Of a DNA stretch of 64,000 nt, positions 15,586 through 18,666 are shown one piece after another. This stretch comes from Mycolicibacterium moriokaense (GTDB taxonomy: Bacteria; Actinomycetota; Actinomycetes; Mycobacteriales; Mycobacteriaceae). The first letter of the stretch is position 1, and each line of letters begins with the position of its first letter. The DNA is taken from assembly GCF_010726085.1 (NCBI RefSeq), contig NZ_AP022560.1, forward strand, positions 496,001 to 560,000, written 5' to 3'. The notes beneath the pieces were generated by a model, which had not been told where the DNA came from, ran no database searches, and saw only the letters and a list, made by a program, of their open reading frames with translations. A program made the position numbers and the translations under genes.

Positions 15586-18500
15586 GTGGCTGTAGTGGAT
15601 GATCTCGGTCATTCAGGCATGGACGTCCCACCTCCCAGTGAAGACTTCGGTCGCCAGCCTCCGCAGGACGCCGCCGCCGAGCAGGCGGTCCTGGGCGGCA
15701 TGCTGTTGAGCAAGGACGCGATCGCCGATGTCCTCGAGCGGCTGCGCCCGGGCGACTTCTATCGGCCCGCGCATCAGAACGTCTACGACGCGATCCTCGA
15801 CCTCTACGGCCGCGGGGAGCCGGCGGATGCGGTGACGGTGGCGGCCGAGCTGGATCGGCGCGGGCTGCTGCGGCGTATCGGCGGTGCCCCGTATCTACAC
15901 ACGCTGATTTCGACGGTGCCGACCGCGGCCAACGCTGGGTTCTACGCGGGCATCGTCGCGGAGAAGGCCTTGCTGCGCCGGTTGGTGGAAGCGGGCACGC
16001 GCGTCGTGCAGTACGGCTACGCCGGGGCGGAGGGTGCGGATGTCACCGAGATCGTGGACCGCGCGCAGGCCGAGATCTACGACGTCACCGAGGGCCGGAC
16101 GTCGGAGGACTTCGTTCCGCTGGAGCAGCTGCTGCAGCCGACGATGGATGAGATCGACGCGATCGCCTCGCAGGGCGGGATAGCGCGCGGCGTGCCGACG
16201 GGTTTCACCGATCTCGACGAGGTGACCAACGGTCTGCATCCCGGTCAGATGATCATCATCGCGGCGCGGCCGGGTGTCGGTAAGGCGCTGGCGCTGAATA
16301 CTCCGCTGCCCACGCCGACGGGTTGGACGATGATGGGTGACGTCGCGGTGGGCGACCATTTGCTCGGCGTGGACGGTGAGCCGACGCGGGTGGTGGCGGC
16401 GACGGAGGTCATGCTCGGCCGGCCCTGCTACGAGGTCGAGTTCGCCGACGGCACGGTGCTTGTCGCGGATGCGATGCATCAGTGGCCGACCGAGCGAGGT
16501 GTACAGATCACGACTGCGCTGCGACCCGGCGTTGACATCATCAGTGCGACGCGTGCGCCGTTACTGGCGTCCATCGGCGGCAGACGGCAGTCGGCGTGGG
16601 GGATCGACGCCGTGCGGCGGGTCGACAGCGTTCCGGTTCGTTGTGTTGAGGTGGCCAATGCTGACCACCTGTATCTGGCCGGGCCCGCGATGGTGCCGAC
16701 ACACAATTCGACGCTGGGGCTGGACTTCCTGCGATCGTGCTCGATCAAGCATCAGATGGCGAGCGTCATCTTCTCGCTCGAAATGAGCAAGTCCGAGATC
16801 GTGATGCGGCTGTTGTCGGCCGAGGCAAAGATCAAGCTGGCGGACATGCGCTCGGGTCGGATGAGCGACGACGACTGGACTCGGTTGGCGCGCCGAATGA
16901 GTGAGATCAGCGAAGCGCCGTTGTTCATCGACGATTCGCCGAACCTGACGATGATGGAGATCCGTGCGAAGGCACGGCGGTTGAGCCAGAAGGCGGGCCT
17001 CCGGCTCATCGTCGTCGACTACATGCAGCTGATGACGTCGGGCAAGAAGTACGAATCGCGTCAGCAGGAAGTATCGGATTTCTCGCGCAGCCTGAAGCTG
17101 ATGGCGAAGGAACTCGACGTTCCGGTGGTGGCGATCAGCCAGCTGAACCGCGGGCCCGAGCAGCGCACGGACAAGCGGCCGATGATCTCGGACCTCCGCG
17201 AGTCGGGTTGCCTCACCGCGAACACGCGAATCCTGCGGGCGGACACCGGGGCCGAGGTGACGTTCGGCGAGTTGATGCGCACGGGGGAGCGGCCGTTGGT
17301 GTGGTCGCTCGATGAGCGCAAGCGCATGGTGGCCCGCCCGATGACGAACGTCTTCTACAGCGGCCACAAGGAAGTCTTCAAGCTGAGATTGGCCTCCGGC
17401 CGCGAGGTCGAGGCGACGGCCAACCACCCGTTAATGACGTTCGACGGCTGGACGCCGTTGGGAGAGTTGAAGGTCGGTGACCGGTTGGCGGTGCCGCGTC
17501 GGGTGCCGGAGCCGGTTCAGACGCACCGGCTTCCAGAGGACGAGGTCGTCCTGCTGGCGCACATGATCGGCGACGGCTCGTGTGTGAAGAACCAGCCGAT
17601 CCGGTACGCGAGCATCGACGAACTCAACCTGGCCACGGTGTCGAGCGCGGCGCGGCACTTCGGGATGGAACCGGCCCGCGACGACTACGCCGCGGCAAGG
17701 GTGACGACCCTACGGCTGCCTGCGCCATACCGATTGACGCACGGGAAGCGCAACCCGATCGCCGCATGGCTGGACGGGTTGGGTCTGTTCGGCAAGCGCA
17801 GTTACGAAAAGTTCGTTCCTGCGGAGGTTTTCGCGCTCCCGAATGATCAGGTGGCGCTCTTTATCAAGCACCTGTGGGCGACCGACGGCTCGGTCTGGTG
17901 GGATGCCAAGAACGACAGAGCGCGTATTTACTATGGCTCGTCGAGCCGTCGACTCATCGACGACGTTTCTGGGCTGCTGGCCCGGGTCGGCGTGTTCGGC
18001 CGGGTCAAGAGAGTCCGCAAGGCGGGCTATCGGGATGGGTGGCACCTGCACATCTCCGGTGCGGAGAACCAGCTGCGATTCCTTAGGCACGTCGGTGTCA
18101 ACGGGATGAAGGCACGAGCTGCCCGCGACATTGTCACCAAGCTTGAGGGCAAGGTGCGCAACACAAATCAGGACACCGTTCCGAAGGAAGTGTGGAGGCA
18201 GGTCCGGGCCGGCCTCGTCGATACCAAGATGACGCACCGACAGTTCGCAGCGGCCATGGGCAGCAAGTTCTGCGGGTCGACGATGTGGAAGCACGCGCCG
18301 AGTCGCCGCCGACTGCATTCGGCGGCAGCTCTCCTCGAGGACACCTCGCTCCATGACCTAGCGACGAACGACGTCTTCTGGGACACGGTTGTCGAGATCA
18401 CGAGTATCGGTGAGCACGACGTCTACGACGGCACCGTCGACGGCACGCACAACTTCGTCGCCGACCTGATCAGCGTCCACAACAGTTTGGAACAAGATGC

Positions 18501-18666
18501 CGACATGGTCATCCTGTTGCACCGCCCGGATGCGTTCGAGCGCGACGATCCGCGCGGCGGCGAAGCAGATCTGATCCTGGGCAAGCACCGCAACGGCCCG
18601 ACGAAGACGATCACCGTTGCGCATCAGTTGCACTTGTCGCGCTTTGCCAACATGGCGAAGTCCTAG
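15586..18666 (+). CDS. dnaB: Replicative DNA helicase DnaB with two inteins
   Basis: The 1026-residue precursor encodes DnaB: N-terminal domain EQAVLGGMLLSKDAIADVL, the Walker A region GVGK|STLGLDFL, FSLEMSKSEI, and C-terminal LGKHRNGPTKTI. It is interrupted by two inteins, at residues 234-374 (inside Walker A, between K and S) and 542-966 (after DLRESG). Removing 141 and 425 residues leaves a 460-residue helicase, the normal length. The second site is the one used in M. tuberculosis DnaB. The enzyme unwinds DNA at the fork as a hexamer. Activity depends on both splicing events because the first intein splits the ATP-binding loop. The start GTG has a strong ribosome site. Confidence 0.97.
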   Translation: MAVVDDLGHSGMDVPPPSEDFGRQPPQDAAAEQAVLGGMLLSKDAIADVLERLRPGDFYRPAHQNVYDAILDLYGRGEPADAVTVAAELDRRGLLRRIGGAPYLHTLISTVPTAANAGFYAGIVAEKALLRRLVEAGTRVVQYGYAGAEGADVTEIVDRAQAEIYDVTEGRTSEDFVPLEQLLQPTMDEIDAIASQGGIARGVPTGFTDLDEVTNGLHPGQMIIIAARPGVGKALALNTPLPTPTGWTMMGDVAVGDHLLGVDGEPTRVVAATEVMLGRPCYEVEFADGTVLVADAMHQWPTERGVQITTALRPGVDIISATRAPLLASIGGRRQSAWGIDAVRRVDSVPVRCVEVANADHLYLAGPAMVPTHNSTLGLDFLRSCSIKHQMASVIFSLEMSKSEIVMRLLSAEAKIKLADMRSGRMSDDDWTRLARRMSEISEAPLFIDDSPNLTMMEIRAKARRLSQKAGLRLIVVDYMQLMTSGKKYESRQQEVSDFSRSLKLMAKELDVPVVAISQLNRGPEQRTDKRPMISDLRESGCLTANTRILRADTGAEVTFGELMRTGERPLVWSLDERKRMVARPMTNVFYSGHKEVFKLRLASGREVEATANHPLMTFDGWTPLGELKVGDRLAVPRRVPEPVQTHRLPEDEVVLLAHMIGDGSCVKNQPIRYASIDELNLATVSSAARHFGMEPARDDYAAARVTTLRLPAPYRLTHGKRNPIAAWLDGLGLFGKRSYEKFVPAEVFALPNDQVALFIKHLWATDGSVWWDAKNDRARIYYGSSSRRLIDDVSGLLARVGVFGRVKRVRKAGYRDGWHLHISGAENQLRFLRHVGVNGMKARAARDIVTKLEGKVRNTNQDTVPKEVWRQVRAGLVDTKMTHRQFAAAMGSKFCGSTMWKHAPSRRRLHSAAALLEDTSLHDLATNDVFWDTVVEITSIGEHDVYDGTVDGTHNFVADLISVHNSLEQDADMVILLHRPDAFERDDPRGGEADLILGKHRNGPTKTITVAHQLHLSRFANMAKS
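16285..16707 (+). other. DnaB intein 1: class 3 mini-intein in Walker A
   Basis: This is a 141-residue element from ALALNTPLPTPTGWTMMGD to MVPTHN, followed by Ser as +1 residue. The first residue is Ala, not Cys/Ser/Thr, so canonical N-terminal splicing chemistry is impossible. Instead it shows the class 3 triplet: Trp in block B (MHQW), Cys at block F position 4 (VRCVEVANADHLYLAG) and Thr before the final His-Asn (PTHN). No endonuclease domain is present. Splicing is expected to begin by attack of the internal Cys. Class 3 inteins at this DnaB site are known from mycobacteria and mycobacteriophage. Confidence 0.9.
17209..18483 (+). other. DnaB intein 2: canonical intein with LAGLIDADG endonuclease
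   Basis: A 425-residue class 1 intein starting CLTANTRILRADTG and ending VHN before Ser+1. Block B is ATANHPLMTFDGW and block F DVYDGTVDGTHNFVADL. Between them lies a homing endonuclease with two dodecapeptide-like motifs, LLAHMIGDGS and FIKHLWATDGS, both with acidic residues retained, so it may still cut DNA. Insertion after DLRESG is the same position as the M. tuberculosis DnaB intein. Confidence 0.93.

Follow-up and report, generated by a model that had tools for sequence, protein, structure and literature searches.

The window, the 64,000-nucleotide stretch of DNA analysed in this work, carries a dnaB gene that is interrupted by two inteins. Positions 15586-18666 on the + strand form a single open frame encoding a DnaB precursor of 1026 aa, in which intein 1 occupies site b in the P-loop and intein 2 occupies site a. 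Upstream of dnaB are frames that read, by eye, like ssb and two ribosomal protein genes. The parts of the precursor are the following.

15586..16284, + strand: dnaB N-extein, from matches to the DnaB N- and C-terminal domains and translation; terminates in GVGK of the Walker A loop
16285..16707, + strand: intein 1, class 3 mini-intein of 141 aa at site b (P-loop), from whole-length match to 6BS8 and 6RIX, fold and WCT residues
16426..16428, + strand: Cys48 of intein 1, counterpart of the M. smegmatis toggle partner (role according to PMC6195587); C in 119 of 119 site-b inteins
16483..16485, + strand: Trp67 of intein 1 (block B, WCT); W in 119 of 119
16642..16644, + strand: Cys120 of intein 1 (block F, WCT), predicted internal initiating nucleophile, aligned with M. 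smegmatis DnaBi1 C118; C in all 119 rows
16699..16707, + strand: Thr139-His140-Asn141 of intein 1 (block G); T and N in all 119 rows, H in 118 of them
16708..17208, + strand: dnaB middle extein, STLG to DLRESG, from DnaB_C match
17209..18483, + strand: intein 2, class 1 with LAGLIDADG endonuclease, 425 aa, site a, from Intein_splicing, LAGLIDADG_3 and intein N- and C-terminal models
17557..17580, + strand: first LAGLIDADG motif of intein 2, AHMIGDGS, from translation and motif alignment
17872..17892, + strand: second LAGLIDADG motif of intein 2, LWATDGS, from translation and motif alignment
18484..18666, + strand: dnaB C-extein, SLEQ to stop, from translation and domain matches

The first-pass annotation of this DNA had placed two inteins in dnaB at 16285..18483, and the analysis reproduces these coordinates to the base. 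The junctions of intein 1 read GVGK/ALAL...PTHN/ST, so that the Walker A loop is split, as had been proposed, by a 141-residue element that starts with Ala and carries a Trp/Cys/Thr triplet. Those of intein 2 read DLRESG/CLTA...SVHN/SLEQ, with the flanks DLRESG and SLEQDAD.

Intein 1 matches over its entire length the class 3 DnaB inteins of M. smegmatis (6BS8, E 1.4e-56) and M. chimaera (6RIX, E 3.1e-54); M. smegmatis DnaBi1 (6OWN) is also matched. Its predicted model (mean pLDDT 90) has the Hedgehog/intein fold of class 3 inteins, with 6RIX and 6BS8 as the top PDB matches (TM 0.86-0.97). The WCT triplet is formed by W67 (block B), C120 (block F) and T139 (block G), and is accompanied by Ala1, C48, D62, H65, H140 and N141. 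As in class 3 inteins generally, there is no nucleophile at position 1, which is Ala in the window and in all 119 rows of an alignment of site-b inteins (130-417 aa, 113 distinct sequences). Every one of the 119 rows has A at position 1, C at 48, D at 62, H at 65, W at 67, C at 120, T at 139 and N at 141, and H at 140 is present in 118. Of these rows, 45 were found via a whole-protein search and 73 by six patterns, any one sufficing, that include parts of blocks B and F and thus favour those residues. Conservation of Ser+1 does not count independently, since this residue served in an alignment anchor. The zinc ligands of the M. smegmatis intein, C118, V119 and Y128 (zinc data from PMC7360933), correspond to C120, V121 and Y130. 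Intein 1 alone has no match in Pfam, and its class assignment is therefore based on the solved homologues and the residues, by which it is a class 3 intein.

Intein 2, alone or inside the full protein, is matched by the Intein_splicing, LAGLIDADG_3 (PF14528, E 1.6e-21) and intein N- and C-terminal models. All residues of class 1 are found in it, namely Cys1, TANH (TxxH), the terminal HN (SVHN) and Ser+1, and both LAGLIDADG motifs contain the catalytic acids. All 80 in-gene intein 2s that reach at least 200 aa have Cys1 and the terminal HN. By its residues and domain matches intein 2 is a class 1 intein with an intact-looking endonuclease, in line with the initial description of a Cys-start LAGLIDADG intein at the M. 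tuberculosis DnaB site. The comparison with intein models that had been suggested as a check identifies intein 2 by the splicing models; the class 3 signature of intein 1 is identified by 6BS8, 6RIX and the residues. The two inteins differ in mechanism and one of them splits the P-loop, as the first-pass annotation stated, so that an uninterrupted helicase would depend on two splicing reactions.

A genome search detected just this one dnaB match in the 6.2-Mb genome, and an intein-free second dnaB as a rescue copy was rejected accordingly. In a comparison with relatives (17 loci, a few of which share one genome), dN/dS ranged from 0.09 to 0.31 in intein 1 and from 0.09 to 0.18 in intein 2, with 0.01-0.10 in the exteins. 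The low values exclude chance for both inteins; purifying selection acts on both, and both are maintained as proteins.

The pair itself is not new. Kelley et al. 2018 (PMC6195587) described one M. smegmatis DnaB with two inteins, DnaBi1 and DnaBi2, which agree with those of the window in site and class, and the window inteins almost certainly constitute the same class 3 plus class 1 pair. The statement of the first-pass annotation that the two types are known only singly in mycobacterial DnaB is contradicted by this report, and the combination was rejected as a novelty. According to PMC6195587, DnaBi1 splices slowly and is sensitive to oxidants, with a C48-C118 disulfide acting as a redox toggle and a crystal structure available, and DnaBi2 is fast and without response, in the authors' view maybe too fast for a response to be seen. 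Zinc bound at C118 inhibits splicing of the M. smegmatis DnaB intein (PMC7360933, 2020), and reactive chlorine was considered for this intein system in PMC8557812.

Both inteins are present in at least 54 of 296 sampled genomes of the genus. An intein-2 match was present in 81 genomes and lay inside dnaB in 67 (in G042 it is truncated by the end of a contig). Among the matches listed, 14 of these 67 are without intein 1, which leaves 53, and G239 with a 261-aa intein 2 (L127) is the 54th. Intein 1 as query fetched 80 named loci; of the 73 that were parsable, 42 carry both inteins and 31 intein 1 only. The pair also occurs in other actinobacterial genera, among them Knoellia, Serinicoccus, Kribbella, Saccharopolyspora and Nocardia. 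The distribution is patchy among close relatives of the window, which has both: L032 has intein 1 only, and L119 and L120 have intein 2 only.

We propose the following mechanism, modelled on the homologues. Both inteins would remove themselves from the 1026-residue precursor. In intein 1 the internal Cys120 would attack the N-junction, the acyl group would then pass to Ser+1, the serine of the P-loop, and cyclisation of Asn141 would release the intein. By homology, intein 1 probably splices slowly, with a reversible block under oxidation (C48-C120) or zinc, whereas splicing of intein 2 is probably fast and insensitive. The LAGLIDADG endonuclease of intein 2 would mediate homing into empty site-a alleles. 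The first-pass annotation suggested that the combination of inteins turns splicing into a possible redox or metal switch on replication. Such a switch is on record for the M. smegmatis homologue of intein 1, where it is a property of that intein and not of the combination; the window has the residues required for it.

Relatives of intein 1 form a size series at site b. L111 (783-2033, +) encodes a class 3 intein of 417 aa with LAGLIDADG motifs, matched above cut-off by PF14528 (E 1.9e-6) and PF05204. This form has additional Cys pairs that, by eye, resemble a zinc-binding insert. A shortened class 3 intein of 334 aa is found in L115 (1052-2053, -), such relatives having 331-335 aa, and one of 293 aa with replaced motif acids and no Pfam match in L116 (2306-3184, -), such forms having 285-293 aa; further relatives are minis like intein 1 of the window. 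The series may have run from large to mini. According to PMC5050341 (2016), the DnaB-b inteins examined there are without endonucleases, and a search of largely open-access journal literature, mostly by title and abstract, found no description of class 3 inteins with endonucleases. The endonuclease-bearing site-b inteins look like an addition to what was known.

Both inteins could also be purely selfish, kept in place by the difficulty of precise loss and by re-invasion of site a, with the response to redox or zinc a by-product of cysteine chemistry that has no value for the host. This reading predicts the same anatomy and agrees with the patchy occurrence among close relatives and with an endonuclease series at site b that ends in minis. 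C48 speaks against it, as it lies outside the splicing triplet and is nevertheless kept throughout the site-b alignment; M. smegmatis C48 mutants fail to splice (PMC6195587), so its conservation is no proof of regulation, and we give the purely selfish reading of both inteins a probability just short of even. That intein 1 is a degenerate insert that no longer splices, as Ala at position 1 and the missing Pfam match might be taken to mean, is so improbable as to be negligible, given the WCT triplet with the whole-length match to solved class 3 inteins, the purifying selection on intein 1 and the lethality expected of a non-splicing P-loop insert in the sole dnaB. The presence of both toggle cysteines in 119/119 site-b inteins means that the M. 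smegmatis results may hold widely.

Relatives of intein 2 were also found outside dnaB, in 14 of the 296 genomes of the genus. A sample of 396 genomes contained 18 such matches at E <=1e-100, corresponding together with the 296-genome sample to 19 distinct genomes, and a scan of the family (301 genomes) added five in two other genera (G552, G473, G530, G535, G356), for a total of 24 loci. All 24 free-standing genes lie downstream of dnaB, 20 of them within 260 nt of its stop codon, including L170 and L207, where the element is inverted towards dnaB; in L205, L206, L172 and L167 the distance is approximately 0.5, 2.4, 4.2 and 4.8 kb, respectively. Site a is empty in 23 of the 24, the exception being L207. 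There, dnaB contains intein 1 and still has an intein 2, in degraded form, and a convergent free-standing copy lies directly downstream. Two free-standing genes are given as examples.

L169, 7555-8898, + strand: free-standing gene derived from intein 2, LAGLIDADG motifs kept
L132, 4335-5618, - strand: free-standing gene derived from intein 2, LAGLIDADG motifs kept

The L169 protein is identical to one named for Mycolicibacterium novocastrense, and M. pulveris and Mycobacterium conspicuum have the same kind of protein, in protein records only. In M. tusciae (L034) and M. arenosum (L057) the element lies downstream of dnaB. No phage match was found in a search for phages as carriers. Plasmids were rejected as carriers, with just two records of the plasmid collection matching, one from Nocardia farcinica and one a distant DnaB-like match.

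Both LAGLIDADG motifs are present in 16 of 19 aligned free-standing genes; those of L171, L173 and L209 are truncated, frameshifted or fused and retain the first motif. Cys1 is lost, and the terminal His-Asn lost or not reached, in 18 of the 19. The exception, L204 (6254-7528, +), has kept Cys1, TGSH and SVHN with Pro at +1, and is perhaps a transitional form. Upstream of it, a short stretch reads like what remains of the dnaB middle extein. Mean pairwise identity among 15 free-standing proteins is 40% in the N-terminal splicing part, 68% in the endonuclease and 44% in the C-terminal part, and among ten in-gene inteins 87, 74 and 76% for the same three parts; by this measure, constraint is inverted between the two forms. 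The dN/dS of the free-standing endonuclease is 0.06-0.22 in the nine of 12 pairs for which it was computable. The predicted structure of the L169 protein (pLDDT 86) is similar to intein endonucleases, among them TliVMA and, further down the list of matches, PI-SceI.

When 96 rows of the endonuclease part, 22 of them free-standing, are placed on a tree, the free-standing state requires five changes, at least three of which are forced by well-supported branches. By this tree the intein-2 lineage left dnaB at least three times to become a downstream gene that lost the splicing residues and kept the endonuclease motifs. Derivation of the free-standing nucleases from intein 2 is probable, well more so than the homing model discussed below, and intein 2 of the window is the in-gene form of this lineage.

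Several further observations were made around these elements. The L171 element (start 7699, in dnaB orientation) ends after the first endonuclease motif and continues, by eye, into repeated helix-turn-helix-like segments. Beyond the element, L172 has a second, decayed intein-2 fragment (1288-1101) and L133 a fragment of the dnaB middle extein (2114-2013). The proteins P0029, P0039, P0053 and P0108, with 328-333 aa, cover ~71-74% of the element and are perhaps endonucleases minus part of the splicing domain. Contigs C13 and C38 of G209 carry two extra DnaB-like genes with frames of 813 and 804 aa, interrupted after residue ~235.

The position of these genes recalls the yeast WHO genes, which lie downstream of FBA1 and whose homing replaces the 3' end of the host gene, with 3' fragments remaining (Coughlan et al. 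2020, PMC7282813). In yeast, the path from an intein to HO was reconstructed from WHO elements. An intein-derived endonuclease gene outside and downstream of its host gene, as in WHO, is found in 24 loci. The C-terminal zinc-finger domain of WHO is missing: Pfam gives LAGLIDADG_3 and Intein_splicing for L169 and L132, with only a sub-threshold zinc-finger inside L132. The bacterial genes are for this reason not classified as WHO elements, and only as perhaps working like them.

If they do, the free-standing nuclease would cut other dnaB alleles near site a, and the element would bring its own dnaB 3' end along, so that the old one is displaced to the downstream side and persists there as a remnant. 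Such 3'-end fragments were detected behind the element in six of the 19 loci searched with their own dnaB 3' end: L165 (E 5e-5), L166 (6e-5), L169 (3e-4), L170 (6e-4), L173 (2e-30) and L246 (7e-4). They follow the element match at a distance of 40-155 nt and share its orientation, including in the inverted L170, and the L173 fragment (148 nt) has 90% identity with the intact 3' end. No fragment was found in the other 13 of the 19, and none at E 1e-3 in the remaining five element loci, where the window's 3' end was the query. L034 has a weaker 3'-end match (E 0.002) twelve nt behind the element; a weak match in L168 (E 0.017) was not counted. Of 119 control loci three turned out to be element-bearing, and the 116 element-free ones gave no match below 1e-3 and nine between 0.001 and 0.011. 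As a further control, the upstream side was searched in the 12 of 14 element loci where enough DNA was available, and the best match there had E 0.022-0.80.

A second line of evidence is the divergence of dnaB between pairs of genomes. In the pair G170/G209 the middle of dnaB differs at 37 of 166 third positions and the 3' end at two of 58, and the element has 0 differences over ~600 nt. Within dnaB the change-point is at 1185 (interval 1122-1254), close to site a at 1200; a single change-point over dnaB and element falls at 1858, inside the element, so that site a is obtained only when the analysis is limited to dnaB. Among 783 pairs, divergence is significantly higher at the 3' end in 287 and lower in one, G170/G209, and the pattern of this pair cannot be explained by a general 3'-end effect. 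Across 145 loci, the 3' end of dnaB is in many pairs the faster-diverging part at third positions when compared with the middle, whether inteins or elements are present or not. A 3' end more divergent than the middle (p<0.01) occurs in 17/60 pairs with empty site a and no known element, in 155/406 pairs with intein 2 in both and in 4/14 pairs with elements in both. The pair G275/G606, which has a sharp break 24-48 nt before site a, was rejected as evidence for homing, as a divergent 3' end is common without an element (the 17/60 pairs). The pair G473/G530 shows no break at site a.

The displaced fragments and the G170/G209 pair may point to homing with replacement of the 3' end; the 13 loci without a fragment, the change-point at 1858 and the pair without a break speak against it. 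We lean slightly towards the view that the site-a intein has repeatedly left dnaB and spreads by this kind of homing as a bacterial counterpart of yeast WHO/HO, with the ancestral intein, the transitional L204 and decayed copies still visible. No free-standing or WHO-like intein-derived elements in bacteria were found in a search of largely open-access journal literature, mostly by title and abstract. In mycobacteria and their kin the intein in the gene, a transitional copy, the free-standing nuclease and remnants appear to coexist at one locus, dnaB. The wider interest is evolutionary, and lies in the relatives of intein 2 rather than in the window itself.

Compared with known systems, the window dnaB is one more natural case of the M. 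smegmatis-type two-intein helicase, already described in kind. It shares with DnaBi1/DnaBi2 both sites, both classes, the mini-intein at site b, the endonuclease at site a, the WCT triplet, C48 and the block F Cys. It differs in belonging to another species and in an intein 1 of 141 aa instead of 139 aa with a different linker. The DnaB intein of M. leprae is at site b and that of M. tuberculosis at site a (PMC6195587), and each matches one window intein; these genes have a single intein each, in contrast to the two in the window, and the M. leprae locus L063 has site b occupied and site a empty. The free-standing relatives, which lie outside the window, differ from yeast WHO in being bacterial, in having dnaB instead of FBA1 as host gene, in the absence of a zinc-finger domain, in several origins from the host gene's own intein and in a cleavage activity that is predicted. 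They resemble WHO/HO in that an intein-derived LAGLIDADG gene lies downstream of an intact host gene, in the lost splicing residues, in apparently displaced 3' fragments of the host gene at some loci and in the presence of decayed copies.
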